DNA from: Tridacna crocea
Taxonomy: Eukaryota > Mollusca > Bivalvia > Cardiida > Cardiidae
Assembly: GCA_943736015.1 (NCBI GenBank)
Contig: OX031062.1
Location: 58,516,962-58,580,961, forward strand
Direction: 5' to 3'
Length of the DNA stretch: 64,000 nucleotides
Shown here: positions 4,970 to 57,394 of the stretch, one piece after another
Position numbering within the stretch: the first letter of the stretch is position 1
How the letters are laid out: each line of letters starts with the position of its first letter
Notes under the pieces: generated by a model
What the model saw: the letters and a program-made list of their open reading frames with translations, nothing else
Database searches by the model: none
Told to the model about the DNA's origin: nothing
Made by a program: the position numbers and the translations under genes

Positions 4970-5643
4970 CATGAAACTTGCAGAGTTTGTTTATCTTATC
5001 AATAGCTTCAACCCTATTGATTTTGAAAAAAATCCTACGAACAGTATGGGAAAAGAAGCCATTTCGGGTTAAAAACGGTCTTTTTTTGTTTACACGATAC
5101 AGTCTAGATTTGAGGTCAGATTTTCATGAAACTTGCAGAGCTTGTTTATATCATCAATAGCTTGAACCCCATTGATTTTGAAAAAAAAAGAAATCCAACA
5201 AAATAGCCATTTCAAATTGAACATTTTCATTGCTTGTTTACATGATAAAGTATTTATTTGTGATCAGATTTTTGTGAATTTTTCAGTTTGTATATCTCAT
5301 CAATAGCTTTAACCCTGTTGACTTTGAAAAAAATCCAACAAACAGTCATGGAAAAGTAGCCATTTTTAGTTGAAAATTTGGATTTCTAATTTACATGATG
5401 AAGTCAGCATTTTTGGTTGGATATTCATGAAACTTGCCCAGTTGCTTTGTCTCATCAGCAGCTGGAAGCCTATTGATTTTGAACAAAATCTTACAATCAG
5501 TCCTATGGGAAATGTAGTAATTCAGAGTTGAAAATTGCCGGTTTTCTTTTTGCATCATGAATTCATAATATCGACGTATGCTAGCATAAAAGCAAAATCC
5601 CTGCCAGTAGAGCGATTTCAAGCCCTTCATGGCCTTCTAGTTT
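4970..5643 (+). repeat. Family E repeat, truncated (about 4 monomers)
   Basis: Family E consists of tandem monomers of about 155 bp, recognisable by TTGTTTACGCGATAAAGTC, GGTCAGATTT and CTATTGATTTTGAAAAAAAT. Full copies start with a CAGCCAGCAGAGC hairpin plus GTCC repeats and end with a GCCCTTCAGGGCC hairpin and TTCTAGTTT. This copy lacks the start but keeps a mutated end (AAGCCCTTCATGGCC...TTCTAGTTT). It is probably a non-autonomous Helitron-like element. Confidence 0.65.
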
Positions 5644-6166: not shown

Positions 6167-6395
6167 TTAACCCATTACCACTCAATCCCTACTTTTGACG
6201 CCCCTGAGAAAGAAGCCTTTTGAAAACACTGTGGGAAAAGGAGAAAATGCTGGTAACCAGCATTTTCTCCTTTTCCCACAGTGTTTTCTACCCTTTCCAG
6301 AACAAATTTCTATTTTTCAGTCACCTTTTTTTTGTCATCTGCAAATGCTTTCAATTTGGACCAGTCCAAAATTTTCTCGTGTGGTAATGAGTTAA
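6167..6395 (+). mobile_element. P1 element, intact
   Basis: Full length with TTAA at both ends. The central palindrome carries C for T at arm position 5 in one arm and the matching G in the other, so pairing is preserved. Its right TTAA is also the left TTAA of the next copy. Confidence 0.85.
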
Positions 6396-9027: not shown

Positions 9028-9430
9028 TCCTTTGCTACATAATCTTGACTTTTAATGACCATGAGGAAAAAACTTTTCAAAATATTGATGTTTTCTATTC
9101 TATCAAAGAGAAAAACCATCATTTGAGCTAAATTCAAATTGTCTGTCAAGGCATTCAGTTTGGACAAGTCTTAACCCTTTACCCCATAAGGAATTTCTAT
9201 GGTATCTTTAACTGACCCTAAATACATGTAACAGCAAGGATGAAGCCATTTCTTATGTGTATATGACACCTTTTGATAGCACAGAAAACATTGTGGCAAA
9301 AGGTGAAATTGCTTGTGACAAGTAATTTCACCTTTTGCCACAATGTTTTCCAAAGGCTCCTACAAGCATTGCCTGGAAATGAGTATCGGTGGAGTAAAGG
9401 GTCAAGTTTTGTCATTTGGTAAAGAGTTAA
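9024..9430 (+). mobile_element. P1 element, degenerate, interrupted by P2
   Basis: The left part (9024-9170) and the right end (9406-9430, TTTTGTCATTTGGTAAAGAG) are one P1 copy split by a P2 element. The palindrome core of this copy is largely lost, which marks it as older than its guest. Confidence 0.7.
9171..9405 (+). mobile_element. P2 palindromic TTAA mini-element inside P1
   Basis: P2 is a second family with the same plan: TTAACCCTTTACYCCATA ends, 230-245 bp, and a central 59 bp palindrome starting ACATTGTGGCAAAAGG. The flanks (including AGCAAGGATGAAGC) are unrelated to those of P1. This copy sits at the TTAA of the P1 motif GTCTTAAATTTTG; the duplicate is TTAA on the left and TCAA on the right. 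Confidence 0.75.
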
Positions 9431-9540
9431 ATGTAGCTTAAAACAGAATGTTCTCTGAAAGGGTATAAAACATAATTATTAGGAATGGGGATATGGTGGC
9501 ATACTTTTGCCATAAGGTACAAGATAGCAATTGCTGTGAT

Positions 9541-9769
9541 TTAACCCATTACCACAGAATCCCTACTTTTGACGACCCTGAGAAAGATGCCTTTAGAAAA
9601 CATTGTGGGAAAAGAAGAAAATACTGGTAACCAGCATATTCTCCTTTTCCCACAATGTTTACTACCCTTCACGAAACAAATTTCAAATTTTCTGTCACTT
9701 TTATTTTGTCCTCTGCAAATGCTTTCGATTTGGACACGCCTAAATTATAGTCGTGTGGTAATGAGTTAA
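9541..9769 (+). mobile_element. P1 element, intact
   Basis: TTAA at both ends and full-length palindrome with three mismatches. Confidence 0.8.
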
Positions 9770-11543
9770 GAGAATAATCGTGATAATACAAAATTTCCTG
9801 AAAATATTGTCTACAAAATAAGAATTTTCACGATGAAAATAAGGAAATAATTCTTACTCTTGTCAAAAGTTTTTATGGTGTCATGCCCACAACATCACTG
9901 ACATTCATGGCATCTAAAATTAGATACAGTTTTGAAACATCTTCGTGTATGACATAATGAAATCGATATATATATATAGATATCGAGTCAGAGATAGAAC
10001 TCAACTATCATGCTAATTTTATCTGGAATGTCAGCTTCATGCAAGATTGAGAAAATTTGCGTTGAAGTATATTGTGATTTTTTTCAGGAAACTTTATTAT
10101 ATCTCAATAAAATTTTCAGGAAACTTTAATTTATTATGTTAATATTAACAAATTAGCATGAAAGAGATACATGTATATGCCACCATAGGGGTAGAATACT
10201 TGTTAATATTTATAGCTTCACCGGCCAAATGCAAATGAGTTTATGTCATGACCCTGTTTCTGTTGTTTTAGGTGTCTGGGTCCATCTTTGTGTGCATAAA
10301 ACCATCTTTGTGTGCATTCCACCACCCCCAGAAGTTAGAAGTTTTATATGGACTTATAAAGTAATTCTGTCGCGGTAATCTCCTAAGGTTCTAATTTCTA
10401 AACCATATGGTATAAGGATACCACATTCAATATGTAGCTTGAATCTAACACACCTTTAATAACATTCTTCAAATGATACCTACATTCTTCAAATGATAGC
10501 TAGCCCTGGAACAAAATTGACATCTCCCGAGAAGGATCAAAAGCAAGATTGGCCTTGTCCCAGCTCACAAAGAATCTTTACTAATCTTCTCATTCTTAAG
10601 CACAAGGCCTAGGACGACCAAGTTTGGTATATAGCTTGATCTGGTGGATCTCTTCTGACTTTGTCCAGACTTTAGCCCTAGAAATGAAATAAGCACCATC
10701 TCTTATGTTTTTTACAGAGAAAACTTTGAGATCCTTCCTTCTTATAACCATAAAGCCTTGAGCTGTATTATTTGGTATGTGGTTGGATCTTGTTGACCAC
10801 TTTAGGGATTCAAATAATTATAGCATTTGACAACCCACATTAGAAGGTTGTTTGAAGTGGGATGACTTATCTTGCAGTATGAAGGTACTGAAGCTAGTCT
10901 ATACTTTTTGCAGACTATGATACCTATATAGGATCTTACACGAGTTGGTGTTTGAGATGAAATTTTATCAAATGAGTCAAGAGAAAATGTACTTAACAGA
11001 GGCTTTGGCAAGAATAATAAAATTTTTTCTAGACGAGATAAATAAAATTGTATCTGAAACCACAATGAATATCAGATTCCTTTTATAAAATAACGGTACT
11101 TCACAAATCATGGGAAGATGCCTATGTAGGCGCACGCATGGTAATATGCATAAGACTCTGGTTTCACTTCTATGAAAAACATACAAAATATTGTCAAAAA
11201 TGATGTCACACAATTATGATATCATACATGTATAAAATATGGAAATTTGTATATATTGCACTGAAAACAAGGGAGGTTACGTGATAATTTTTGTCTTTTT
11301 TCAGATGACTGATTGTGCTTGTATAACACTGAATCTGATCTGATGTAGTGATCAACAGATTACTTTTTATCACAACAGATAAAGGGACCAGTTTTTGACT
11401 CCTTAGTCTGCTTTAGAGAGCACAAGTAAGCAATTCATATCAGTCCTTTTGACAGTTATTGTTGCTCTGCATCAGAGTACTACTACCTTTGATTATTTAG
11501 TGAGGGAACATAATTATGAAAAAAGATTTTTTGTGTGTGTTAA
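9770..11543. other. No gene recognised
   Basis: The longest stretch of the left half without a recognisable repeat. It contains only a TCGATATATATATATAGATATCGA-like self-complementary AT block near 9963-9986 and a 17-base ACCATCTTTGTGTGCAT direct repeat near 10272-10310. The reading frames are short and featureless. Confidence 0.3.
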
Positions 11544-11772
11544 TTAACCCTATACCAGATGACAAAATTTTAGCCTTGTCCAAATTGAAAGCATTTGCAG
11601 ACCACAATATTAGTGTAGCTCAAATGGTGCAAATTTTCTTTGATAGGGTAGAATACATTGTGGGAAAAGGAGAAAATGCTGGTTACCAGCATTTTCTCCT
11701 TTTCCCAAAATATTTTCAAAAGGCTTCTTTCCCGGGGTCGTTGAAAGTCGGCTTTGTGCGGTAATGGGTTAA
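11544..11772 (-). mobile_element. P1 element, intact
   Basis: TTAA at both ends, with a near-perfect palindrome. Confidence 0.8.
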
Positions 11773-11780
11773 AGTATATC

Positions 11781-11998
11781 TTAACCCATTACCAAGCAGT
11801 CCCAGGTTTTAACCACCCTGATGAAATAGCTTTTTGAGAATATTGTGGGAAAACAAGAAAATGCTGGTAACCCCTTTCCCCAAGTTTTTTTTTTCCCTTT
11901 CAGAAACAAATTCATTTATTTGAGGCACATTTAATGTTATCTTTCAATGCTTTTAATTTGAATTGGTCTAAAATCTTGTTGAATTGTTTAAGAGTTGA
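11781..11998 (+). mobile_element. P1 element with half its palindrome deleted
   Basis: It lies 8 bases after the previous copy in opposite orientation. The right arm of the palindrome is missing from its CAGCATTTTC part onward, leaving GGTAACCCCTTTCCCC. Confidence 0.65.
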
Positions 11999-12424
11999 AG
12001 TAGTCTAGCAATGGTGACTAATTTCAAACTGTAAAGGTATTTATGGTGATCTTTTTCTGTCCTGTATGTAAGGGCAACAAGAGGTTGTAGTCAGCAGGTC
12101 AGCAGGATATGTGTCTGTGCAGATAGCATTTGATTTTCAGATTGTTTCTGCCACTACCAATAATGCAACATTTTTATTTATGAAGTACAAAGGAACATTT
12201 TATATTAACACATGCATAGCTGATAATTTTCAAGGTGTGTAGGAATTAGATATTAAAGAGATAGCAAGAACCCACAATACACTAGTTGTTCTGCTTCCTG
12301 TCAAAAGTATTACTGGTATATTTTATTTTTGTTTTTAAATTTTGAAATATTTTTTAATTTTATTTGACCCTGTGCCAGATAAAAGCATTTTAGGTTTTGT
12401 CTATGTTGTGAGCATTTACAATGG

Positions 12425-12653
12425 TTAACCCATTACCAGACGACAATATTTTAGACTGGTCCAAATTGAAAGCATTTGCAGACGACAAAATAAAAGTGAC
12501 TGAAAACTTGAAATTTGTTTTGTGAAGGGTAGAAAACATTGTGGGAAAAGAAGAAAATGCTGGTTACCAGCATTTTCTCCTTTTCCCACAATGTTTTCAA
12601 AAGGCTTTTCTCTCAGGGGCGTCAAAAGTAGGGATTGTGTGGTAATGGGTTAA
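12425..12653 (-). mobile_element. P1 element, intact
   Basis: TTAA at both ends (GGTAATGGGTTAA on the right) and one palindrome mismatch. Confidence 0.85.
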
Positions 12654-12686
12654 TCAAATCGAGATTCAATGATTTGATTTTCTACA

Positions 12687-12955
12687 GAAGGGTTGAAAAT
12701 ATTGTTGGAAAAGGAGAAAATATTGATTACCAATGTTTTCTCCTTGTTCCATTATATTTTCAAAAGCTGTCTGGTGCAGTGTCATGAAATCATTGTCTGT
12801 ATTGAGAGCATTTGCAGAAGTCTTGTAAATTAGACATGGATCAGATATCAGGATTTGTGTTGGAAAAGATCTAGTAGAAAACATTGTTGGAAAAGGAGAA
12901 AGATGCTGGTTACCAGCATGTTTCCTCCTTTTGAAAATGTTCCAACTTAACAGCT
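12687..12955 (-). repeat. Two decayed P1 cores
   Basis: Degenerate palindromes at about 12695-12765 (starts AAATATTGTTGGAAAAGG) and 12872-12945 (starts AAACATTGTTGGAAAAGG). Flanks are only partly recognisable. Confidence 0.55.
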
Positions 12956-13334
12956 CTCTTGTTCAGGGCCATTAAAACAATGATATTGTGAAATTGGAAT
13001 TGTGCCATTTTATTAAATTTCCAGTCACTGTGGTTTATAAATTTGTATTGGGAGAGCTTTTTTGAATAAGATTAAAAAAAAAAAACATTTAGAAGATTGT
13101 ATTTCAAGATCACTGGAGCACAGCTTGCTGAGATGAACCTTTGTGATTGTTTAATATCTGAGGTCGGTGTTCCTGTAATATGTAGGCTGTAAGGCAGATA
13201 GTGTAGATCAAGATCAGCTATACCTAATCTGTACTGTTGGATACTTTGATAATTGTCCAGATCGAAGATTGCTTTAATTTTCTCACTTAGATTTATAGTC
13301 ATTAGCTGAAAATTTCTCCTTCATTTCATGAAGC

Positions 13335-13522
13335 CAGAGCTCCAGAGAGAGGGAGTGATATTGATTTCAAAATGAAAAACATAATTCTCAATTAAACCCT
13401 ATGTTGTGGGTACTCATTAGAATCGTCTCATCAAGACGATTCTAATGAGTACCCACAATATAGGGTTTGGAAGAGAAATAATAGATTTAGAGTACCATCA
13501 CTCCCTCTTATCTGGAGCCCTG
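13335..13522. mobile_element. 188 bp palindromic MITE with 6 bp target duplication
   Basis: The ends are CAGAGCTCCAGA...AGGGAGTGAT and the inverted match ending GGAGCCCTG. TGAAGC abuts both sides (13329-13334 and 13523-13528). The centre (13394-13468) is a 35 bp inverted repeat with a CATCA loop and a single G/A difference that still allows G-U pairing. CAGGG-type ends suggest a hAT-like element, although those normally duplicate 8 bp. Confidence 0.75.
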
Positions 13523-13574
13523 TGAAGCTGTATAATCTTTTTGCATAAAATGTATGTATGCTCTTGATTAAGAT

Positions 13575-13650
13575 GGCATTTGAAAGCATTGTGGAAAAAG
13601 GAGAAACTGCGGGTAATATGCATTTTCTCCATTTCCCACCATGTTTTTTT
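13575..13650. repeat. Decayed P1 core
   Basis: Recognisable as AGCATTGTGGAAAAAGG ... TTTCTCCATTTCCCACC. The flanks have been lost. Confidence 0.5.
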
Positions 13651-13918
13651 TTGACAAAAGATAAATCTAATTAGAGAGCCACACTGAATTAGTTTTCTGC
13701 CTTATGGTTTTAGTTTCACACAAAAAAAATCCTTTGTTTCAAACTTCCTTGCAAATAAATCCACCTAAAACATTGTTCATAACCAGCTTTTCTTCCTTTT
13801 GCTAGAATGTCTTACCTACCAAAGATATTTTAACGCTGTCCTTTGGGACATATTTAAAATTTTGTCTACCAATGCTTTCAATTGGACAGGTCTAATACAT
13901 GTATGCTTTGTTGCTCGC

Positions 13919-14116
13919 TTAACTCTACCACAAGACAAAATTTTGGACTGCTCCAAATTGAAAGCATTTGCAGACTAAGAAATAAATATGACTAAAAATT
14001 TCAAAAGGGTAGGAAACATTGTGGGAAAAGGAGAAAATTCTGGTTACCAGTATTTTCTCCTTTTCCCATAATGTTTTCAAGGTGGTTAATAGTCAGGATT
14101 GTGTGTAATGGGTTAA
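13919..14116 (-). mobile_element. P1 element, slightly shortened
   Basis: TTAA at both ends; about 30 bases shorter than full length through small deletions on both sides of the palindrome. Confidence 0.75.
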
Positions 14117-14226
14117 ATATTGAGGATTTTAAACTAGATGGTAGATATCTCAGCAGGTTTAACAGGTGTGCTTGTAGATCTGATCTTTCCAAGCATCTCT
14201 TTAATGCATTTTTGTGATTTCTTAGC

Positions 14227-15342
14227 TCTACTGGCTTTCAGCCAGCAGAGCTTATGTCATGGCGTGGTTTCCGTCGTCTGTCAGTCCGTCCGTCCGTCCG
14301 TCCGTTTGTCTTTTTCTTGTTTACGCGATAAAGTCTTCATTTCTGGTCAGATTTTCGTGAAACTTACACAGTTTGTTTATCTCATCGATAGCTTTAACCC
14401 TATTGATTTTGAAAAAATCTGACAAACAGTATGGGAGAAGTAGCCATTTCAAGTTTAAAATTTCCATTTCTTGTTTACGCGATTAAGTCTGTATTTTTGG
14501 TCAGATTTCCATGAAACTTGCAGAGTTTGTTTATCTCATCAAAATCTTCAACCCTATTGATTTTGAAAAAAAATCCAACAAACAGTATGGGAAAAGTAGC
14601 CATTTCAAGTTGAAAACTTTCATTTCTTGTTTACACAATAAAGTCTTCATTTTTGGTCAGATTTCTGTGAAACTTACCCAGTTTGTTTATCTCATCAATA
14701 GCTTTAACCCTATTAATTTTGAAAAAAATCCGACAAACAATATGGGAAAAGTAGCCATTTCAGGTTTAAAATTTCCATTTCTTGTTTACGCGATTAAGTC
14801 TATGTTTTTGGTCAGATCTCCATGAAACTTGCAGAATTTGTTTATCTTATCAACAGCTTCAATCCTATTGATTTTGAAAAAAATCCAACAAACTGTATGG
14901 GAAAAGTAGCCATTTCAAGTTGAAAATTTTCATTTCTCGTTTACGCGATAAAGTCTTCATTTTTGGTCAGATTTCTGTGAAACTTACACAGTTTGTTTAT
15001 CTCATGGATAGCTTAAAGCCTATTGATTTTGAAAAAAATCTGACAAACAGTATGGGAAAAGTAGCCATTTCAAATTGAACAATTTCATTGCCTGTTTGCA
15101 TGATAAAGTATTTATTTGTGATCAGATTTTTATGAATTTTTCAGCTTGTTTATCCCGTCAATAGCTTTTTAACCCTGTTGAGTTTGAAAAAATTCAACAA
15201 ACAGTAATGGAAAAGTAGCCATTTTGAGTTGAAAATGTCAACTTTTTTGTCTTTGTGCGTAATGAATTCCTATGTATGCTTTATTTAAAAGCAAACTCTC
15301 TGCCAGTAGAGCATATTCAGGCCCTTCAGGGCCTTCTAGTTT
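14227..15342 (+). mobile_element. Family E Helitron-like repeat, full length
   Basis: The start is a hairpin region GGCTTTCAGCCAGCAGAGC, then GTCCGTCC microsatellite (14282-14307), then about six tandem monomers of ~155 bp. The last two diverge. It ends AGGCCCTTCAGGGCCT plus TCTAGTTT. A 3' hairpin shortly before a fixed tail, central tandem repeats and no TIR or target duplication are the layout described for non-autonomous Helentron/Helitron elements in oysters. No Rep/helicase is present. Assignment is by structure only. Confidence 0.6.
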
Positions 15343-15379
15343 ATTCATACGTTTAACATGTTTTATCAAGTGATTTTTA

Positions 15380-16060
15380 TCAAAAATGTAATCAACGCAT
15401 CTGAGCACGGTGTGCTTATGGGGAGCTTTTAGGATCACCAGGTGTCCTTCGTGTATGTTTTTGATCTGTCAAGAAACAAGTTGTGAATGGGGGCACTATA
15501 TAGAAATTTAGGAATTCTTAAAAATTTGTCTTCTCTGAAACTGCTGGTCATATTTTGAAATAATTTCACAGAGATGTTCCTGGGATGACCCTTAGCAAAA
15601 ACTGTTCGCGAAATTTTGATCCATCATGAAACACGGCTATGGTGAATGGGGGCTTCTTGCTATATAGGGAAATGAAGAAATTCTTAAAAATTCTTCTTCT
15701 CTGAAACTGCAGATCAGATTTTGAAATAATTTTAGAGAAATGTTCCTTGGATGACCCTTTTTAAAACTTGTATGCGAAATTTTGATCCATCAAGAAACAT
15801 GGCTCTGATGAATTGGGGCTTCTTGCACTATGTATGGCCATGAAGAAATTCTTTAAAATTCTTCTTCTCTGAAACGGCTGATCAGATTTTGAAATAATTT
15901 CACAGAAATATTCCTTGGCTGACCCTTTTCAAAAACTGCTCAAGAAATTTTGATCCATCAAGAAACATGGTTCTGATGCCTGTGGGCTATTTACACTATA
16001 CAGACATGAAGAAATTTTTAAAAATTCTTCTCTGAAATGGCTGATAGATAAGGGTTTAAG
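15380..16060 (+). repeat. Family A repeat, decayed (about 4 monomers)
   Basis: Family A elements start with AGCTCACCTGAGCAC and a short hairpin, carry ~166 bp monomers (TTCACAGAGATGTTCCTTGG, GACCCTTTTCAAAAA, TTTTGATCCGTCAAGAAACA), and end CAGGTGAGCGATCCAGGGCC plus CTCTTGTTT. The start and end of family A contain AGCTCACCT and AGGTGAGC as subterminal inverted repeats. This copy has a worn start (CATCTGAGCACGGTGTGCT) and no recognisable 3' end. Confidence 0.6.
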
Positions 16061-16297
16061 AAGATTCCATGGACATTGTTGGCCTTTCCAGATTGTTTCC
16101 ATCTTGTTTTGACATGGTGTACTGACTTGTATTGAAATAGTCCTGTTATACTATTTAGACACACTTTTAAATATTTTTTTTTCTAGGTACCTAATTGAAA
16201 TACACACTAGTAGATTAAGAATCTTAAGGATAAAGTTGACTGGTTCCAGGTTGCCATCTCCACTAAGCTCTGCTACAAAAGCATCATCAAGGGACTA

Positions 16298-16447
16298 ACC
16301 TAGTGACTAGGTGAATTGATGACTTTTCTAAACAGAATTTGAATATAACCTAGTGACTAGGGGAATTGATGACTTTTCTAAACAGAATTTGAATATAACC
16401 TAGTGACTAGGGGAATTGATGACTTTTCTAAACAGAATTTGAATATA
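16298..16447 (+). repeat. Three tandem 50 bp units
   Basis: Units start at 16298, 16348 and 16398 with ACCTAGTGACTAGG. Units 2 and 3 are identical and unit 1 differs by one base. This is a recent local expansion or a slippage product. Confidence 0.9.
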
Positions 16448-16535
16448 ACCTGGGGACATTTAATATTGTTTCAAGCTTCAAAAAAACTTTGACAGTTGGC
16501 TGATAAAGAATGTCATCTGAGCCAGAGAAAGCACC

Positions 16536-17254
16536 CAGGGTTTTCCATGACGCACAAGTCCTGCGTCATTGACGCAATTTTAATTCAAATGACCCCCAAA
16601 ATAAATGACAGTGCGTCATCGGTGACGCAACTTTCCAAAATCTAAATAATGTACGTAGTTGAATGAAGCGTCATAATTCCAAGTCTGTTCTTACTTCAAT
16701 GTCAGACGTACACCGTTCTTTTTTTAACTACAGGGTTTATTTTAGATAAAAGTGGTTTTCCGGTAATTTATTTATAGAATAAGACTGGTTTACGCATTAT
16801 TGCCGAAATCTATATTGGACACGTGTCATAAATATGGGCCCAGTCAAAGTCGTGGTTGGGTTCTCTGTATTTCATAGCATATTTTACACTACTTCCGGAA
16901 TATAAAAGTACACATTACCTGTCTGTGCTGTTGGCGGAAAAATAATGGCATGACGAAGAAACATGTAGCCTTCTTCTATGGTCTGCTTCCTACAACTGCC
17001 TATCAAACCATGTCAAGCAGCGATTCAGACAAACATGTTTGGTCTGTCAAAAAATAACATCGGCCTTTCCGTCAGAAATGATCGACCGACTTTTCAATCT
17101 TGGAAGTTGGCGTTTAAAAGGTAAAATGCATTATAAATCATGTTTGAAGTTGATGGCGCGGAAATCCATATTTTTGACCCCCAAAATTAATGAAATGACC
17201 CGCAACTAATGAGGAACAATGACCCCCAATTTTCAAAGCCGAGGGAAAACCCTG
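16536..17254. mobile_element. 719 bp non-autonomous TIR element (hAT-like ends)
   Basis: Starts CAGGGTTTTCC and ends GGGAAAACCCTG. Inside both ends lie ATGACCCCCAA-type words (16588 direct; 17160-17235 direct), plus repeated GACGCA/TGCGTCA words near the left end. No convincing 8 bp duplication flanks it and no transposase frame is present. Confidence 0.5.
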
Positions 17255-17437
17255 CCACCCATGGTGGCTTATAGAAATTTGTCAATTGTTTATTCAGCAT
17301 AATATTTTAAGCTCACATCAGGATGTTTGACCCAAAGCTTTGAATTTTGACCTGAACTATTCAGGACAGGGGGTCAGAACGACCCTCAAAATTCTACATC
17401 TGGAGAAAGCAAAGTAGCTCATTCTTTATTCAACTTT

Positions 17438-17560
17438 TTAATCACACAACAAAATTTTAGACTTGTCCATATTGCAGGAATTTACAGGGCAAAATTACAG
17501 TGTTTTCAAATGATTGAATTTGGCCTTGAATAGGTTTAAAACGTTGTGGGAAAATAATGA
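17438..17560 (-). repeat. P1 fragment
   Basis: Left P1 end (TTAATCACACAACAAAATTT) running into GTTGTGGGAAAATAATG, where it breaks off within the palindrome. Confidence 0.5.
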
Positions 17561-17637
17561 GTGAATACAAGCAGGGTTGTTAAATCTGCGTATTTCCTTT
17601 AACAGAGGCTGAGTTAATATAATCAGGACTAAGAGAA

Positions 17638-17871
17638 TTAACTCTTTACAACATGAAAGAATGCTAGACAATTCCAAAGAATTTAAAGAATTCACAGACA
17701 ACAAATTACATGTTGCACATTAGATAGAACTTGTCTTTGATAGGGTAGAAAGCATCGTGGGGAAAGGAGAAAATGATGGTTATCAACATTTTCTCCTTTT
17801 CCCACATTGTTTTCAAAAGGCTTATGCATCATGGTCGTTAAAAGTGGAAATTGTGTGGTAAAGGGACTTAA
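17638..17871 (-). mobile_element. P1 element, diverged
   Basis: TTAA at both ends and full length. The palindrome has about five mismatches. Confidence 0.7.
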
Positions 17872-17885
17872 AGAAATACAATTTT

Positions 17886-18492
17886 TAGCTCACCTGAGCA
17901 CATTATGTACTCAAGGGATCTTTTAGGATCACCGGGTGTCCGTCGTCCCTTGTGCATTGTCTGTCGTCGGTCGTCAACAATTCTTTAAGCATCAGCTCCT
18001 CCTAAACAGCTGGGCCCATTTGGACCAAACTTGGCTGGAATGTTCCTTGGGAGGTCCTCTTAAAAAATTGTCCACAGAATTTGATTCCATCAAAAACTCT
18101 GGTTGCTATGGCAATCAAATGGAATTATCTAAGAAATTCTTTAAAAATCTTCTTCTGAAACCGCTGGCCAGATTTTAAAATAGTTTTACATAGATGTTCC
18201 TTGGGTGAACCTTTTCAAAAAGTGTTTGCGAAATTTTGATCTGTCAAGAAATATGGCTCTGTTGACTGGAGGCTAGTAGTCTTGCACTTTACTGAAATTA
18301 AGAAATTCTTAGAAATTCTTCTTTTCCGAAACTGATGGTCAGATTTTGAAGTGACTTTTACAGGTGACCTTTTTAAAATTGCTTAGCAAAATATGATTTT
18401 GTTTCCAATGTTTCAATACCTAAAAAAAAAAAGGCTATGGTCCTCTCAAAAATTGAAGTGAGCGATCCAGGGCCATCTTGGCCCTCTTGTTT
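17886..18492 (+). mobile_element. Family A repeat, short complete copy
   Basis: Begins TTTTTAGCTCACCTGAGCAC, has GGATCACCGGGTGTCCGTCG, about two and a half monomers, and ends GTGAGCGATCCAGGGCC...GGCCCTCTTGTTT. Both diagnostic ends are present, so this is a small complete element. Confidence 0.65.
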
Positions 18493-18590
18493 ACAGTATT
18501 ATTTTCCATGTCATAGAAATTTGAACTTTTGGAATGTTAAGTGGACATACAGGATTATTCTGAAAAATCACCATCCTTTTGTATGAACTT

Positions 18591-18817
18591 TTTAACAAAG
18601 ACAAAATTTTAGACTGGTGCAAATTGAAAGCACTTGCAGACAACCAGATAAACACAACTCAAAAGTTGAAATTGGTTCGCAGCATGGTAGAAAACATTGT
18701 GGGAAAAGGGGAAAATGCTGCATGGTTACCAGCATTTTCTCCTTTTTCCACAAGGTTTTCTAAACTCTTTTTTTCTCTGGGTCGTTAAAACTCGGGATAA
18801 TGTGAAGTAAAGGGTTA
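18591..18817 (-). mobile_element. P1 element
   Basis: Full length. A CATG insertion in the palindrome centre (ATGCTGCATGGTTACC) breaks its symmetry, and the ends are worn. Confidence 0.7.
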
Positions 18818-19000
18818 GATGGACATAGGAGATTATTTTGAAAAACCACCATCCTTTTGTAACAAGTAAAATTTAAAATTTCCTGTTTCCCTAAGGAAAT
18901 GAAATTCAGATTCTCAGCCATCACTATCAATGCAGTGAATGTGAAAGTCAAGCTGTTAGTTTCAGAATATCTGATAAAGAAGTGGACAGGTATAAATCCA

Positions 19001-19050
19001 AGATCAGACTGGATGTTCTGTGCAGTCTGATCTAGGTCTACATTGTCTGG
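19001..19050. repeat. AGATCAGACTG hairpin motif, copy 2
   Basis: AGATCAGACTG, an 11-base loop, then CAGTCTGATCT: an 11 bp exact stem. It is followed by the word GGTCTACATTGTCTG. Confidence 0.6.
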
Positions 19051-19077
19051 TTATCCTTTCACCACACAATCATGAGT

Positions 19078-19307
19078 TTAAACCTTCACCACACAAGCCC
19101 TACATTTAATGACCTTGTTAAAAAAGCTTTTTGAAAACATTGTGGGAAAAGGAGAAAATGCTGGTAGCCAGCATTTTCTGCTTTTCCCACCATGTTTTCA
19201 TCCCTTTCTAAAACAGTTTTGGATTTTAAGGCATGCTTATTTTGTCGTCTGCAAATGTTCTCAATTTGGACCAGTCTAGAATTTCATCATTAGGTATAAA
19301 GAGTTAA
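19078..19307 (+). mobile_element. P1 element
   Basis: TTAA at both ends and a well-preserved palindrome with G in place of A in the left part of its centre. Confidence 0.75.
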
Positions 19308-19414
19308 ACCATTATCCTGCTAAATAACTAAAATGAAATTTTCAATTTGATGGTAAAACTCCAAATATTGCTTTTTCGAAGGTATGACTTAGAATGATAT
19401 TGCCTTAGCCCACA

Positions 19415-19480
19415 GTGTAGATGAAAAATCAGACTGCATGTTCTGTGCCATCTGATCTTGATTTACACCGTCTGATAAAG
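19415..19480. repeat. AGATCAGACTG hairpin motif, copy 3
   Basis: GTGTAGATG...ATCAGACTGC paired with CATCTGATCTTGATTTACAC. Confidence 0.5.
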
Positions 19481-19484
19481 GTTT

Positions 19485-19942
19485 GTTAGTTGCACTTAGC
19501 AGCCTAAGGGTTAATGATCTTAACAGGGAAGGCTTTGAAAAGCATTTTGAGAAGAGGAGAAAACGCTGGAGACCAGCATTTTCAACTTTACCCACATTTA
19601 ACTCATTACCAAACGACAAAATCTTAGACTGGTCCAAATTGAAAGCATTTGCAGATGATAAAATGAACATAACTCAAAAATTGAAATTTGTGCTGGGAAG
19701 GGTAGAAAACATTGTGGGAAAAGGAGAAAATGCTGGTTACCAGCATTTTCTCCTTTTCCCACAATGTTTTCTAAAGGCTTCTTTCTCAGGGGCATCAAAA
19801 GTAGGGATTGTGTGGTAATGGGTTAATTGTTTTTGTGTCCTTTCACTCACAACTTCGATCATTTGAGCCATATTTAATTTGTTGTCTGCAAATGTTTTGA
19901 GTTTAAACCAGCCTTAAATTTTGCTGTTTGGTAAAAACTTAA
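19485..19942 (+). mobile_element. P1 element, degenerate outer copy
   Basis: Left part (19485-19597, ends TTACCCACATT) and right part (19827-19942, ends GGTAAAAACTTAA) belong to one P1 that was split by the next entry at its palindrome. Confidence 0.6.
19598..19826 (-). mobile_element. P1 element nested in P1
   Basis: Intact, with a perfect-looking palindrome and TTAA at both ends. It is much better preserved than its host, so it is younger. Confidence 0.85.
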
Positions 19943-20170
19943 GCAAGTAAATTCAAGTTCAATGCAACAAGGGTCAAAGTTTCAATTAAGTCCAAATGTA
20001 AAAGGCCTGTTTACAAAATAAATTGCATTTTTACAATGTGAAAATACAGTGAGTATTATGACTTAAACAGTATGTAAAATTGCAGTTCGTAAAAGTTCCA
20101 GTCAGTGGTAGAAAAAAGATTTTTGAAACTAGAACAGATCCTACCGTGCCGCATTATCAGTGTTTTCATT

Positions 20171-20323
20171 GATGATTGCGGACGATTGGACGACTTTTGG
20201 TCGTAAATCTCTGCAGTAACTGATGATTGCGGACGTTTGGACGACTTTTGGTCGTAAATCTCTGCAGTAACTGAGGACTGCGGACGATTGGCCGACTTTT
20301 GGTAGTAAATTACTGCAGTAAAG
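20171..20323. repeat. Three tandem 51 bp units
   Basis: Units start at 20171, 20222 and 20273. Each contains TTGCGGACG and the self-complementary ACGACTTTTGGTCGT. The third unit is the most diverged. Confidence 0.8.
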
Positions 20324-20803
20324 TAATAGTGATGTAAACACTGATTGTGATAATTCAGTGTGTTGAAACAAAACTCTCGTTCACTTGATCATTTTGTCCC
20401 CACTCTAGGCAAGAAAAACCAAGTTTATCAGCATTATAAACAGAAACGACACAGGCAGATTGTCGCTTATTTGTTTATCATCAATACAGGAAGAGGCTAT
20501 TACATTGAAATAAGAAAATAGGTTCAGAATGAGCAATTTCACTCTGACAACATAATATTTACAATAGTCCTGTGTATGACTCGTATCACAAATGAGATAC
20601 AATGTTATCATATGACATTCTCGAAGACCTAGACCGAATATACACAAAGATGACAAAGGTTATCTTGATCAGTGGTGTCTCTGAAATTGACAGGCTTGTC
20701 CATGTATTTTCACACACATATATCATGACAACCAGTGCAGTAACTGACATGTTCAGATTTTCTCCAATCTTTTATATAGAGGATATTTGTTTTTTTTCGG
20801 TGA

Positions 20804-20935
20804 AAGATGGAAATTTATTTCATCAAGTGGACACCATCGGTAATATTTTCACAAAGGGCAAAGCCATGAGTGAAAATATTACCAATGGTGTTCACGAGAT
20901 GAAAAAAATTTCCATCTTTTAACGAAAAAAATAAA
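20804..20935. repeat. Long hairpin, arms of about 55 bp
   Basis: GTGAAAGATGGAAATTTATT...GGTAATATTTTCAC, a 17-base loop, then GTGAAAATATTACC...AAATTTCCATCTTTTAAC. A few mismatches and a small indel are present. No flanking duplication was found. Confidence 0.65.
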
Positions 20936-21568
20936 TATTCTATTTATTTCATGCTTTTAACCCTTTCTAGGAGGAGGAGCTTTATCAAAATCTAGTACAA
21001 TTCTTTTCCATTATTCCCCCTGGCGTACCCCTTCCACATAGCAACACATTACAATATTACGTCAAGCATGAGAAAATGTAAGGTATATGACGTCATATTT
21101 CCCATCTGGTTGTTAGGCATGGCAATTTACCTAGGCAACAAGAACGTGAAAATTGGTATTTTCACTGGTGGTACCACTGTAAGATCGAAAAATATTTCCA
21201 CTGCTATTTCTCTATATCCTACCGGAAAGCATGAAATAAAATTTTTGTGTTATGTATGTTGTGATGGGTTATCTGTTACATTTTCAGATTGTAAACGGTG
21301 AAAATTACCTAACTTTCTGGACTTTACAAGAGCTTAAAGTAGTGAATAGATTAATGATTATGTTCGTGTGCTGTCATGTGCACAGTTTGACCAGTCTACA
21401 TAATACCTTATCAGTGTACCAAGATGACATTTTATCTGTTGATTATTAAGTTTAAAAGCATTGTGAAAAAAGGAGCAAGTGTTTGGAACAAGCATCATTG
21501 GTTGATTTCCTACAATGTTTTACATACTTGAAAAATGACAGTTCTGTTATTCTTTAAATGTGCGTCTA

Positions 21569-21794
21569 TTAACCATTTACCAAACAATTCCGGGTTTCAT
21601 GACCCTGAGAAAGAAGCCTTCTGAAAACGTTGTGGGAAAGGTAAAAAAGAGCAGGTAACTGGCATTTCTCCTTTTTCCACAATTTTTTCTATCCTTCCGA
21701 CTACCATTTCAAATTTTGAGTCGCATTAATAATGTTGTTGGCAAATACTTTCAACATGGACTAGTCTAAAATAATGTTGTTTGGTAAAGAGTAA
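21569..21794 (+). mobile_element. P1 element, diverged
   Basis: Full length. Its right end (AAAGAGTAA) coincides with the left end of the next copy. Confidence 0.7.
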
Positions 21795-22020
21795 CCTTCA
21801 CCACACAATACTAAGTTTTAAATACTTAGACGGATAAGGCATTGGTTATCACAATGGAAAAAGTATAAGCGGTGGTAAGCAGCATTTTCTTGTTCTACCA
21901 CTATGTTTTCTACAATTCTATAAAAATCCCTGATTTCAACCATATTTAAGTCAGTTTCATCTGGAATTGCTTCCAATTTGAAAAGTCCAAAATTTTGTTG
22001 CTGGTAAATTATCGAGTTAC
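21791..22020 (+). mobile_element. P1 element, strongly diverged
   Basis: Same orientation as, and end-to-end with, the previous copy. Flanking consensus is still clear, but the palindrome is mostly lost. Confidence 0.6.
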
Positions 22021-22237
22021 TTACAGCTTCAGAAAAGGGGTGTGATTTATATTTCAAAATTGAAAATATTAATTATTTTACACTAAACCTGGTCTGAAAG
22101 TTTTCGCTATTTGTGAATTTTCTGGATGCCCAAAGGACTGATCTATCTAATGATAAAATTAGACGTTATAAAAACTGGCTGTCATGGATTTATATTTATG
22201 TGATTGCTTGCTTGGTGTTATGCATTCTGGAGATGCA

Positions 22238-22355
22238 TTAACCCATTACCACACAATCCCCACTTTTGACAACCCTGAGAAAGCAGCCTCTATTTTGTCT
22301 TGAAATGCTTTCAATTTGGGCAAGCCAAAAATTTTGTAATTTGGTAATGGGTTAA
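22238..22355 (+). mobile_element. P1 deletion derivative without palindrome
   Basis: Only 118 bp: both TTAA ends and TIRs are intact, but everything from the left palindrome arm to the TATTTTGTC segment is gone. The outer sequence is well preserved. Confidence 0.75.
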
Positions 22356-22406
22356 GCCACCTTTTGCCAGAGCATCGATTATTTATTTTGTAGTTTCTAG
22401 GGGGTG

Positions 22407-22636
22407 TTAATGGACCTTTTGTCACACAGTCCCATGTTTGAACAACTGTGAAGAAGAAACCCTTTGAAAACATGGTGCGAGAAGGAGAAAATACTGGCAG
22501 CCAGCATTTTCTCTCTCTAACACAATGTTTTCTCCTGTTTTAGTAAAATTTCATCATGTGAGACAAATCTTGTTTGTTTTCTGCAGATGCTTTTAACTTT
22601 GTTTAGTCTAAAATCTTTTGTTTGGGTAAGAGTTGA
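22407..22636 (+). mobile_element. P1 element, diverged
   Basis: Left TTAA is intact; the right end reads AAGAGTTGA. Arms carry several mismatches. Confidence 0.65.
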
Positions 22637-23514
22637 CCGTTATCTCTTCAATTTTATGTAGCTGAAAAATGATATCAAACACACTAAGGAGGTAGGTTAT
22701 AGATTATGATAAATGGTTTAAAAAAATATCTAAAGGATCACACTGAGGAAGAGTCTGATATGGGAAAAAATATCCTGGGTTTCACCAGTTCTGGGCTAGG
22801 ACTGTGAAGTCTTATAGCAAAAGACAAATTCCATGAAAGATTACAAATCAGACACGTATTGTTCATTTATAAGAAAGTAAAAGTTTTGTTTTCCAGTAGT
22901 ACAGGAAGCAGTTCAGAAAAAGAAGTAATTGCTTGTTTTGTTTACAAATACTTCACACAATACTCAATATAAGCGAATTATAGCTATCTTCCCATTATGA
23001 ACATTCAAAACCATGCTCAGGGCATAGACAGGCTCAAATTCTTTCTCTATCAACATCCCATGGAATTAGATTATAGATGCAGCTGGGATTTAGCCTCAAA
23101 ACCTCATGGATGGCTAGGTCTGATCAGATGTCCACCAACCCTGGAGAACTGAAGATCTTATGTGTACAAAAGAGACCAGCAACATTAAATTCTCACAAAG
23201 AAAGATATTGTCTCTACATTTTTTACTATTTTCTCAACATGTCTGTAACTATAATTTTGGCCGTTTTTACATAGCACAGGTTATGTTGGTGAATAAATAC
23301 ATAAAATCATAATCTTAAGATGTCCATGAACAACTCAACCAGGAAGTTTAGATATAGAGAAAAATCAATCATACACTCTTTTGTTAATGTGCCAAATTTA
23401 TTGAACATTTGAAATTTAAAATATAAATTGATTTTTATTATAAAAATACATGTACTATTCTACATTAACTTATTTCAGAGAAAATGGTTTTCCATTATTA
23501 CAAATTCAGTTACA
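22637..23514. other. No feature recognised
   Basis: AT-rich, with no terminal repeats or coding similarity. Confidence 0.3.
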
Positions 23515-23662
23515 TTAACCCATTACCCCATAAGGTATTTCTTTGGCATCTCTAATTGACCCTAAATAACAGCAAGGATGAAGCTGTTTCTTATGTGTAT
23601 ATGACACATTTTGATAGCAATTTCACCTTTTGCCACAATGTTTTCCAAAGGCTAATACAAGC
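23515..23662 (+). mobile_element. P2 element, deleted
   Basis: The left half is intact from TTAACCCATTACCCC; the left palindrome arm is missing (TTTGATAGC joins AATTTCACC) and the right end is lost. Confidence 0.65.
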
Positions 23663-23898
23663 AGTAAGGTTAGGTATGAAGTTAGGCTTGTTGAAACTCG
23701 TTGCACAAATCATGAGGTTGGTCTTGGAAGCAGTAGTGTAAAGTGCAGAGGATATATACCAATCCTAATCAGAATCTCATTAGGTCAACACTGGACAAAC
23801 AAAATGTCATAAGAAAATAATATTCGATGAATGCTAAGCAAAATCAGTAGGTGAAGAATAGCAACTCCCATCCTTCTTCAACAAACAGCAGAAGATGA

Positions 23899-24127
23899 TT
23901 AACCCTTTACCAAACAACAAAATTGTAGACAGGTCCAAATTGAAAGCACTTGCAGACGACAAAATAAACATAACTCAAAAATTTAAATTTGTTTCCAGTA
24001 GGGTAGAAAACAGTGTGGGAAAACGAGAAAATGCTGGTCACCAGCATTTTCTCCTTTTCCCACAATGTTTTCAAAAGGCCTCCATCTCCGGGTGGTAAAA
24101 AGCAGGGATTGTTTGGGAAAGGGTTAA
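23899..24127 (-). mobile_element. P1 element, intact
   Basis: TTAA at both ends; GGTCACC instead of GGTAACC at the centre. Confidence 0.8.
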
Positions 24128-24243
24128 TGAAGATGACAGATTATTCCTACAGCATTAGTCAAATGAAGAAGTTCTAGTGTTCAAGTTGTGCAATGGTAGT
24201 ATGCCATTACAAAATGTGATGTAAATGTCACAAAAAAGTCTCC

Positions 24244-24472
24244 TTAACCCTTTACTCCATAAATACTCATTTCTACGCATTACTTGTAGAAGCCTTTGGA
24301 AAACATTGTGGCAAAAGGTGAAATTGCTCGTGACGAGCAATTTCACCTTTTGCCACAATGTTTTCTACACTATCAAAAGGTGTCATATACACATAAGAAA
24401 CGGCTTCATCCTTGCTGTTATCTTGGGTCAATTAGAGATACCATAGGAATGCCTTATGGGGTAAAGGGTTAT
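24244..24472 (-). mobile_element. P2 element, intact
   Basis: Complete palindrome centred on GCTCGTGACGAGC. The right boundary reads TTAT rather than TTAA. It is the best-preserved P2 in the window. Confidence 0.8.
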
Positions 24473-29392: not shown

Positions 29393-30489
29393 TTAAAGGT
29401 GGTCCTTCAGATTTTGGGACAAAAATGTTACAAAAATTAAAAAAAAAAAAATCCTTATCCTCCCAAAGCCTTTTAATTTTGATTCATAAAACAGATTTTT
29501 TTTTTTTTTGAAAACCATCTGACAGCAAGAAATTAAGAATTTACTTCTGCCCAGGTTGACACCAACGGGAAACAAGGTCTGCTTTTACATGAGCAACTTG
29601 CACATTTACATATCAAAAATATACACAGGAAGCTTCAAACACAGCGTCCATAGATGATATTATAGAAAATAATTATGTGTCTGTTATGTTATGGAATTAA
29701 AGCATTATTTGTGACCTGCCTGCATGTCACTTGACATTCCCACTATGCTTTTTTTGATTTTTGGCACAAAATCTGAAAAATACCTCAAGAGGCTTTTAAG
29801 GGAACACCATCATTTTTTTGGGTAATTTTATGATTTTTAATTATTGATGAATTGTATTGTTTTTTCATATAAATTGCAGTGATATATATATTTTTTCAGT
29901 TGGTGAGATGTGAAAAATCTAAATACCCATCTTAAAGGTGGGTACTTAGAAATTTCACATCACACCAAATCAAAAACAAAAAAATATATATATCACTGAA
30001 ATTTATATGAAAAAACAATACAAATCATCAATGATTAAGAATCATAAAATTACCAAAAAAAAATTTTTTTTTTGATGGTATTCCCTTAAAAGGCTACATA
30101 GCCTCTTAAGCTATTTTTAGATTTCGTGCCAAAAACAAAAAAATGCATTGTGGGAATGTTAAGTGACTGGCACGTGACCAATGACGCTTAAAGTCCATTA
30201 CATAACATACATGTAATTATAAATCATAATATCTTCTTCGGACGCTATGTTTGAAGCTTCGTCTGTGTTTTTCTAGGATGTACATGAGCGAGGTATTCAT
30301 GTAAAAATAGAACGTGTTTCCTGTCGATTTCGACCTTGGCCGTAGTAAATCTCTAATTTCTCGTGTTGTCGGATGGTTTTTGACTACTGGGGTTTTATGA
30401 ATGACGATTATAAGGCTTTGGGAGTATAAGGATGATATTTTTGTATTTTTGTAAAATTTTCGTCCCAAATTCTGAAGGGCCACCTTTAT
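29393..30489. mobile_element. 1.1 kb fold-back: two 550 bp TTAA elements head to head
   Basis: One unit spans 29393-29935 and an inverted unit spans 29932-30489. They share the TTAA at 29932-29935. Each unit has short terminal repeats TTAAAGGTGG...CCACCTTTAA, so the compound is a large imperfect inverted repeat with arms of about 545 bp. The left unit is more diverged and has extra poly(A)/poly(T) runs. Single units occur at 42606-43153 and 63553-64000. The TTAA boundary suggests piggyBac/Kolobok-type mobility. A reading frame in the right unit (30217-30483, reverse) has no recognisable domain. Confidence 0.7.
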
Positions 30490-35419: not shown

Positions 35420-35664
35420 TTAACCCTTTACCCAATATGGCATTTCTATTCTATCTCTAATTGACCCAAAATATAATTGACCCAAAATAACAGCAAGGAT
35501 GATGCTGTTTCTTATGTGTATATGACACCTTATGATAGCAAGAAAAACATTGTGGTAAAAGGTGAAATTGCTCGTCACGAGCAATTTCACCTTTTGCCTC
35601 AATGTTTTCCAAAGGCTCCTACAAGCAATGCCCAGAAATGAGTATCTATGGAGTAAAGGGTTAA
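35420..35664 (+). mobile_element. P2 element, intact
   Basis: TTAA at both ends. A 15-base direct duplication (ATTGACCCAAAATA) lengthens the left flank. Confidence 0.8.
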
Positions 35665-44119: not shown

Positions 44120-44331
44120 TTAACTCCTTATCAAACAGTAAAATTTTAGGTTTGTCCAAATCGAAAGCAATTGCAGACGACATTATAAAAGTGACTAAAG
44201 ATTTGAAATTTGTTTTGTGAAGGTTACGAAGGTTGTGAAGGTAACCAGCATTTTCTCCTTTTCCCACAATGTTTTCTAAAGGCTTCATTCTCAGTGTGTT
44301 CAAAAGTAGGGGTTGTGTGGTAATGGGTTAA
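44120..44331 (-). mobile_element. P1 element with left palindrome arm deleted
   Basis: TTAA at both ends. GAAGGTTACGAAGGTTGTGAAGG replaces the left arm and the right arm is intact. Confidence 0.75.
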
Positions 44332-45105: not shown

Positions 45106-45133
45106 GTTAAATTATATATAATAGAACAACAAG

Positions 45134-46126
45134 ATGGGTAATTGGACATTCGTTTGGCTCATTGTAATCCTCATTTACCAAACATTTGCAGCTGTAGACA
45201 GGACTTTCCCTACCAACAGAAATGGAGACAGATTCACATCAATGATTGTGAAACATGAAAACAGTAATATTTATGTGGCTGAAAATGGATTTATTCACAG
45301 ACTAGATATGGATTTCAAATTGGAAGAAAGTATCAGCACTTGTGATATTAAAGATTGTGAGAATATAAATAAGGTTATGACAATGGATAACAACTTTCTC
45401 ATAATTTGTGGTACTGGAAAAAATCATACTTGTCAAGCTGTAAATGATGGCATTGTAAAGTACATTAGCTCAGGTGACATTTCAGATGAAAATTATTTAG
45501 CAGTGTCTGCAGATGTGAACCGACCAGCTGTAGGTTTAGGCCTGAATGGCGATTTTTTTTTAGGGGTAACATATGGCACAGGACTGAGGATCACAAAAGA
45601 GAATACCTATGAGTATTTGATATCAAGAACAAATATCAGGGACAGTTTTAGCCCTCTTGGAACTGTCAAACTCCAGGGGCCCAACATCATTGATGACTAC
45701 ATTGTGTATTTCAGAAAAATCTTTTATCATAAGGGTTTTGTGTATTTTTTAACAAATCAGAGAGATGACATGAGTGTTGATGATTATACGTCAAAATTAG
45801 TTCGCATATGTGTAAATGAAACTCATATGCTGACTCCATTCCAGATCAGGTCATTCACTGATATAGTAATGACCTGTGTCGTGGATGGTGACAAATACAA
45901 TTTGCTACAGGATGCTGAATTTTTACCAGCCAAAGGTATTCTTGTTGCTTTTTTCTCAAGGGGAGATAATCCAGAAAATCCAACTTCTGAAAGTGCAGTT
46001 TGTGTTTATACCCTAGATGCTGTGAATGATACCATTGTTGAAGCTAAAAAAGACTTTATTACTTGTCCAGCCAAGAATAAGACTTTCTACCTTGAGACTC
46101 TGCTTAATAACTGTGTACCAGAAGAG
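45134..46126 (+). CDS. Plexin-like receptor, first coding exon (signal peptide and sema domain)
   Basis: This encodes the N-terminus of a plexin-like cell-surface receptor; plexins bind semaphorins and signal through a cytoplasmic GAP domain to steer axons and cells. Residues 1-20 are a signal peptide (short N-region, VWLIVILIY core, AA before the mature end). Residues 30-331 are the greater part of a sema beta-propeller: IYVAENGFIHRLD resembles blade 1, C70, C75, C92 and C100 match the usual early cysteines (LIICGT...HTCQ), VYFLTNQ at 203-209 and YTSKLVRIC at 218-226 are plexin-like, then DGDKYNLLQDAEFLPAKG and SAVCVYTLDAVND at 287-299. Five N-glycosylation sites are visible (N3, N97, N228, N298 and N315; N3 lies in the signal peptide). 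The ATG has A at -3 and G at +4. The exon ends in phase 0 at GAAGAG/GTGAG; the open frame then reads ten intronic codons to a TAA. The PSI and IPT repeats, membrane helix and GAP would lie outside the window. A semaphorin or Met-like protein is less likely. Confidence 0.8.
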
Positions 46127-46128
46127 GT
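46127..46128 (+). promoter_or_regulatory. Splice donor of the plexin-like exon (predicted)
   Basis: GAG/GTGAGA matches the metazoan donor consensus. It coincides with the last sema-like codon, after which the translation loses similarity. Confidence 0.7.
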
Positions 46129-46609
46129 GAGAAAATATTTTGTCTATAATCTGAAATAAACGTTATCCTTTTTCATTAGAACTTAAATTCATATAATAAT
46201 AGTTTCTTTGCAAGTGTGCTTTGTAAGATGTTAAACGCTGACTTTTTCAATTGCAACATAAACATTTTTTCCCACCAGCAGTATGAGACCGAGTTATGTA
46301 TCTAAATTGCATGGCTTTCACCACACTGAAATTTGGAAATTGAAATGGAAAAAAAGTCAAGAGTGGATTCATTCTTAAGAATGGAGATCAGCACTATTAC
46401 ACTTGACTTAAACAGTTTAGTGAATACTTTCAGAGACTAAGCTTGAGAAATTTATTCTTATTGACAAATGTTTGAAAAGTGAAATTAAGGTAAAATGTAA
46501 GGGTGAATTTAATACTACACCGGTGTAAAACTTTAGCTTGGTAAGCATAATATACACATATGGCACAAACATACAGGGCATTGTGGTATGAACTCCAAAG
46601 AAACCAAAG

Positions 46610-57165: not shown

Positions 57166-57394
57166 TTAACTCATTACCACACAATCCCTACTTTTGACAC
57201 CCCTGAGAAAGAAGCCTTTTGAAAACACTGTGGGAAAAGGAGAAAATGCTGGTAACCAGCATTTTCTCCTTTTCCCACAGTGTTTCCTACCCTTCCAAGA
57301 ACAATTTTCTTTTTTTTAGTCAGCTTTATTTTGTCGTCTGCAAATGCTTTCAATTTGGACCAGTCTAAATTTTTCTCGTGTGGTAAAGAGTTAA
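57166..57394 (+). mobile_element. P1 element, intact, inside mariner
   Basis: TTAA at both ends and a perfect-looking palindrome with the CACTGTGGG variant also seen at 6167. It is one of the youngest-looking copies. Confidence 0.85.

Follow-up and report, generated by a model that had tools for sequence, protein, structure and literature searches.

Miniature inverted-repeat transposable elements (MITEs) are usually held to need little beyond their ends. The closest precedent for the family described here, as far as the consulted portion of the report goes, is provided by the CMITEs of Acropora corals, which are piggyBac-like MITEs at TTAA sites whose internal region is conserved above the ends between families, a role in transposition having been suggested for it by the authors (PMC2872659). 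In the excerpts available from a second study, piggyBac and piggyBat transposases bind palindromic motifs near the element ends via paired C-terminal domains, the known piggyBac-type palindromes being 19 bp and 14 bp long and close to the ends (PMC11707139). The present family was found in a 64,000-nucleotide stretch of Tridacna crocea DNA (contig OX031062.1, here C7, positions 58,516,962-58,580,961; hereafter the window), and its members carry an internal 67-bp palindrome. The main result is that this palindrome has been kept in the source copies and is not repaired in the resident ones.

The two best palindromic cores of the window, P1 (centre 19738) and P2 (centre 24332), are perfect palindromes with arms of 35 bp and 33 bp, respectively. 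The original prediction, made from the window alone, had recognised their palindromy correctly and underestimated their length, giving 59-bp cores with 29-bp arms. It had also claimed that P1 and P2 differ at arm positions 10, 17, 22 and 27 (that is, 14, 21, 26 and 31 of the 33-bp arm) by swaps to the complementary base (G/C, A/T, A/T and G/C), all of them mirrored in the opposite arm, and the core alignment bears this out; the centre base also distinguishes the two cores. That only strand-flipped pairs differ does not extend to the family as a rule, given that T8C, which occurs in two window copies, is a mirrored transition. A third subfamily, PM, is intermediate and has the two inner flips only. 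Were five differences per arm, as many as separate the subfamilies taken together, placed randomly, the two sets would coincide with a probability of 4.2e-6, or 1.7e-8 with matching bases. The copies on which these comparisons rest are the following.

19598..19826, forward strand: P1 element of 229 bp that contains the best P1 core and ends in TTAA tips; palindrome centre 141 from the left and 89 from the right
19705..19771, no strand assigned: P1 core, 67-bp palindrome, reference copy (67/67)
24244..24472, reverse strand: P2 element containing the best P2 core; decay has turned its distal tip into TTAT; end placed by the 107+67+55 architecture
24299..24365, no strand assigned: P2 core, 67-bp palindrome, reference copy (67/67)
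6167..6395, reverse strand: P1 element with mirrored transition T8C; core 6222-6288
57166..57394, reverse strand: second P1 element of the window with mirrored T8C; core 57221-57287

The family was then followed in 364 kb of the 1.049-Gb, 31-contig assembly, comprising the window and 30 further 10-kb stretches, of which 20 were spread over C7 and ten came from one other contig each. In this sample, 225 cores matched without gaps at 52 or more of the 67 positions, of which 202 were nearest to P1, 14 to P2 and 9 to PM; gapped cores and cores with fewer than 52 matches (fewer than 58 for the T8C and C56T variant counts) were excluded before counting. Both arms belonged to one class in 149 of the 225 copies (130 P1, 11 P2 and 8 PM), and there was no copy of mixed class; the corresponding figure in a smaller sample was 125 of 192. 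When subfamilies were clustered from the flanks, with clusters of one or two members dropped (17 of the 21, holding 19 of the 95 elements), four consensuses were obtained, namely P1a (52 members), P1b (13), P2 (6) and PM (5). All four pair at 33 of 33 arm positions, and the five arm positions at which they differ (8, 14, 21, 26 and 31) are all mirrored, the centre base differing besides. One element (stretch L013, positions 4973-5201) has P2-like flanks, albeit by a weak match (79/136), together with the inner flips only, which suggests that the inner two flips probably came first and the outer two later in the P2 lineage. Four of the five changes at subfamily level are complement swaps, compared with 22% of the ordinary single-arm changes (p = 0.010), or four of six (p = 0.025) if G13A, a transition present on both arms in three of the 14 P2 copies and on one arm in two, is counted as a sixth. 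This is suggestive of a weak over-representation of strand flips, the comparison being post hoc and the events few. The flip at arm position 31 in the P2 and PM cores creates a CG in each arm, and by eye, CA or TG stands in its place in several P2 copies, as decay of a methylated CG would give.

The conservation of the core was measured in 95 elements picked by their tips only, 82 of them P1, lengths outside 217-241 bp being excluded. Within the 82 P1 elements, cores diverged pairwise by 0.092 on average and outer flanks by 0.233; the closest pairs differed at 0.054 in the core and 0.080 in the flanks, and at a flank divergence of 0.43 the core had reached 0.135. The difference lies in which changes are shared among copies. 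Private changes are no less frequent in the core than outside it (0.92 per site in the arms, 0.60 and 0.54 in the outer flanks), and post-insertion mutation is therefore alike in both. Variants carried by at least four copies, in contrast, are depleted in the core (0.27 per site in the arms, 0.96 and 0.85 in the outer flanks), and core change is therefore missing from the lineages that multiplied. A 2x2 Fisher test of private versus shared changes, core versus flanks, gave an odds ratio of 5.4 (p = 1.9e-8) for all 82 P1 elements, a figure that is partly due to subfamily structure, and of 2.9 (p = 0.028) for the main cluster of 52. The claim that the palindrome is maintained is thus supported for the lineages of multiplying copies, on the grounds of core divergence, the depletion of shared variants and the mirrored consensus differences.

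In the resident copies, the two arms decay independently. The 202 P1 copies contain 879 single-arm changes, these being about 20 times commoner than matched doubles, of which 42 were found against 40.2 +/- 6.4 expected (p = 0.41) when right arms were shuffled among copies within divergence strata and the T8C pair (pair 8) was dropped. Cruder controls, which ignore copy age or site rates, had given an apparent excess (51 matched doubles against 23.6 expected under independence, in 170 copies with pair 8 included; identical changes in mirror pairs at 0.0065 per cell, compared with 0.0035 in mock pairs of equal base), but it vanished under the stratified shuffling, and arm conversion at the level of copies was rejected. 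Resident copies thus show no sign of arm-to-arm repair, and arm-to-arm gene conversion, one of the causes proposed originally, finds no support among them, matched doubles being at chance level. As observations that would speak against maintenance, the same prediction had named single-arm changes as common as paired ones and a core as divergent as the flanks; the former is what the copies display, the latter is not (0.092 versus 0.233).

P1, P2 and PM are subfamilies of one element, as judged from sequence, and not separate repeats. They share a 229-bp architecture bounded by TTAA, in which 107 bp lie to the left of the 67-bp core and 55 bp to its right. Exact tips were found 107 bp left of the core in six P1, five P2 and one PM copies, and 55 bp right of it in 47 P1 and eight P2 copies; a strict pattern placed PM right tips at 54 and 90 bp, the consensus of the PM cluster (five elements) nevertheless fitting 107+67+55. 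The commonest length from tip to tip is 229 bp, seen in 46 of 121 elements. P1 and P2 had been said to be unrelated outside the palindrome except at the tips, which does not stand: besides the tip-to-core distances, they have in common a AAAGGCTNCT block adjoining the core on the right, and their ungapped flank identity exceeds that of shuffled sequences (39% versus 28% on the left, p = 0.0066; 48% versus 25% on the right, p = 0.0008). P1-PM flank identity was reached by none of 5000 shuffles on either side, and PM-P2 identity was above the shuffles on the right (p = 0.0004) and not on the left (p = 0.21). Between subfamilies, cores are identical at 0.87-0.91 of sites and flanks at 0.32-0.64, the P1 and P2 consensus flanks differing at 0.52-0.55. 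What holds for the diverged flanks is that each side is equal in length; freedom from indels does not follow, as 4 to 10 gap events arise when pairs involving PM or P2 are aligned with gaps allowed. By matches to three consensuses, family sequence makes up 21.9% of the 30 stretches (7% to 39% per stretch) and 12.3% of the window, with 408 merged clusters in the 364 kb. If the sample is representative, the genome would hold of the order of a million clusters, fragments included, a rough figure since the window and 20 of the 30 stretches lie on one chromosome. A DNA search of the assembly with the 71-bp P1 core gave no match, which reflects the passing over of very common words in such a search and does not speak for rarity. 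The further members located in the window are listed here.

9171..9405, forward strand: P2 element, left flank 6 bp longer, right tip decayed; core 9284-9350; right end placed 55 bp from the core
35420..35664, forward strand: third P2 element of the window, 245 bp; core 35543-35609
12425..12653, forward strand: P1 element, 229 bp; core 12532-12598
9541..9769, reverse strand: P1 element, 229 bp; core 9596-9662
11544..11772, forward strand: P1 element, 229 bp; core 11651-11717
23899..24127, forward strand: P1 element, 229 bp; core 24006-24072
44120..44331, no strand assigned: decayed member within an unrelated repeat; joined flanks reveal an empty TTAA site

Two other palindromes of the window, at 13394-13468 and 29900-29968 (37-bp and 34-bp arms with three and five mismatches), are by eye unrelated to P1 and P2. 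Also in the window are two tandem arrays (14313-15299 and 15499-16031, unit spacings of about 155 and 167 bp), Pfam matches to a Tc3-like transposase helix-turn-helix (2097-2474) and a GIY-YIG nuclease domain (61318-61893), and a weak Sema-domain match below the Pfam cut-off (45125-46159).

All four consensuses end in TTAA-C(C/T)C..GGG-TTAA, the left end being CTC in one P1 consensus. TTAA and the end sequences served as criteria for picking elements, the proper test of TTAA being the empty site. A search with 125 queries gave 945 spanning hits, from which three cases were examined. With the flanks of the member at 44120-44331 joined through one TTAA, eight of the 11 rows shown align gap-free at the join, and for the element at 19598-19826 there is a 6-base gap beside the join. 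The left and right tips covary at position 8 (A or T; p = 3.9e-8) and at position 11 (A or C; p = 1.2e-4). By its structure, that is, TTAA sites, CC..GG ends, short uniform length and non-coding sequence, the element is probably a piggyBac-type MITE. A Kolobok origin was excluded because the ends are CC..GG and not the 5'-RR..YY-3' given for Kolobok in the portion of the report consulted (PMC9587614). The exact core pattern had no match in viral contigs, and the six pattern matches of an element peptide there were not confirmed. Of six sequence words from the element, searched in paper texts, one or another occurred in three papers, all unrelated by title and abstract, and no earlier report recognisable as this element was found in the open-licence literature.

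The best explanation we can offer, which in our estimation stands an even chance of being correct, is that the palindrome of this piggyBac-type MITE is a cis-acting module that copies need in order to multiply. Lying 107 bp and 55 bp from the two ends, the 67-bp palindrome would then be required for multiplication, and copies that lose it would leave fewer offspring, so that source lineages would keep both sequence and symmetry while residents decay neutrally. Its most likely role would be to serve as a symmetric platform on which transposase dimers sit or the two ends are brought together. An internal transposase platform at fixed distances from the tips would explain the conserved sequence, the symmetry, the covarying tips, the constant length and the restriction of constraint to multiplying lineages. 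Where a source copy tolerates a change in one of its arms, the other arm may come to match it by selection or by rare copying between arms.

Such copying across the palindrome has occurred, because three elements hold the right-hand flank on both sides. These snap-back elements (stretch L026, positions 953-1129; L009, 9617-9798; and L016, core at 4739) match the 55-bp flank at 50 and 54, 37 and 46, and 41 and 42 positions, respectively; no snap-back with the left-hand half twice was present among the 225 copies.

Several observations weigh against a cis module. As far as the excerpts go, known piggyBac-type palindromes are short and near the ends, whereas here the palindrome is 67 bp long and internal (PMC11707139). 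Pairing at all 33 positions exceeds the needs of a dimer site, which suggests a hairpin or repeated copying. The inner 15-bp flanks on each side of the core are not conserved (divergence 0.260 within P1), and the depletion of shared variants in the main cluster is modest (p = 0.028). Symmetry also has exceptions among the variants. Sixteen of the 18 arm variants present in at least four of the 82 copies are not mirrored, with three mirrored occurrences among their 82 carriers, the two mirrored ones being T8C (12 of 14 carriers) and its partner A60G (12 of 15). The 16, mainly G>A or C>T, are in our reading the product of recurrent mutation; some, however, may go back to source copies changed in one arm only and would then speak against strict symmetry. 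In the 163 P1 copies of the variant counts, T8C is mirrored in 15, with 18 left-arm and 23 right-arm carriers, and C56T, on a single arm in most of its carriers, is found in six of 18 T8C carriers (p = 0.0014, uncorrected). These six lie at L003:1571, L006:9012, L012:2806, L019:9470, L025:5204 and L026:3838; five of them keep the left-arm G12, giving a G-U type pair on one strand, and L003 also has G12A.

A tentative alternative, possible though on the unlikely side, is that the palindrome is kept for folding, as a DNA cruciform in replication or transposition or as RNA, with the fold and not a protein site under constraint. All 33 pairs are kept in the four consensuses, and the stems of P1, PM and P2 hardly differ in energy (-53.2, -54.9 and -52.2 as RNA; -37.2, -38.2 and -38.3 as DNA), complement swaps leaving pairing strength alike. 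A fold alone would permit the sequence to drift, however, yet only five of 33 pairs have changed while the P1 and P2 flanks differ at 0.52-0.55 of sites, and no Rfam family matched the window at its gathering score. Less probable is that template switching or hairpin copying equalises the arms, producing symmetry without use. The three snap-backs demonstrate copying across the palindrome, but the residents have no matched excess (42 against 40.2 +/- 6.4), so that the process would need to act in source copies only, and it leaves the sequence conservation of the core unexplained; it may be the route by which symmetric alleles arise. Somewhat more doubtful still is a central hairpin required in source copies in which complement swaps are favoured, as they would present small RNAs or a strand-specific binder with a different sequence at unchanged stem stability; the successive subfamilies (P1, inner flips, P2) would then be escape variants. 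A conserved reading frame that includes the core is very improbable: a 118-amino-acid open frame does cross the element (19462-19818), but it has no Pfam match, by eye most P1-P2 swaps would alter a residue, and mirrored changes are not expected of a reading frame. Peptides resembling this frame are presumably present in public databases. Coincidence or the choice of best-looking copies is hardly credible, for although two hand-picked copies were compared originally, the mirrored consensuses, the recurrence of the three classes, matched between arms in 149 of 225 copies and never mixed, and conservation in elements picked by tips only refute it.

The family, of the order of a million clusters if the sample is representative, amounts to a natural experiment, in which residents decay freely while multiplying lineages have kept the internal palindrome, its position and the element length. 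The internal requirement for MITE success suspected for coral CMITEs becomes testable, and the contrast between private and shared changes offers a general method for finding internal modules.

Among known systems, Kolobok shares with the present family a 4-bp TTAA target site duplication and occurs in molluscs, and differs in having 5'-RR..YY-3' ends where CC..GG is found here, according to the portion of the report cited (PMC9587614). The piggyBac and piggyBat elements are likewise TTAA elements, with a transposase that binds palindromic motifs with two C-terminal domains; in the excerpted account their palindromes are short and near the ends, whereas ours is 67 bp long and internal (PMC11707139). 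Resemblance is greatest to the coral CMITEs, which, in the portion of the report considered, likewise sit at TTAA sites, have CCCTTTCCC-type ends and are better conserved internally than at their ends; their length is about 100 bp, of which the internal region takes up 75 bp, and one coral has about 1600 copies (PMC2872659). The present element measures 229 bp and would number of the order of a million clusters if the sample is representative. This comparison rests on described features. The text of the CMITE paper contains no word beginning with 'palindrom' (PMC2872659), whereas the present family has a perfect internal palindrome with mirrored changes. To the CMITE pattern it thus adds larger numbers, the perfect palindrome, the mirrored changes and the contrast between private and shared variants.

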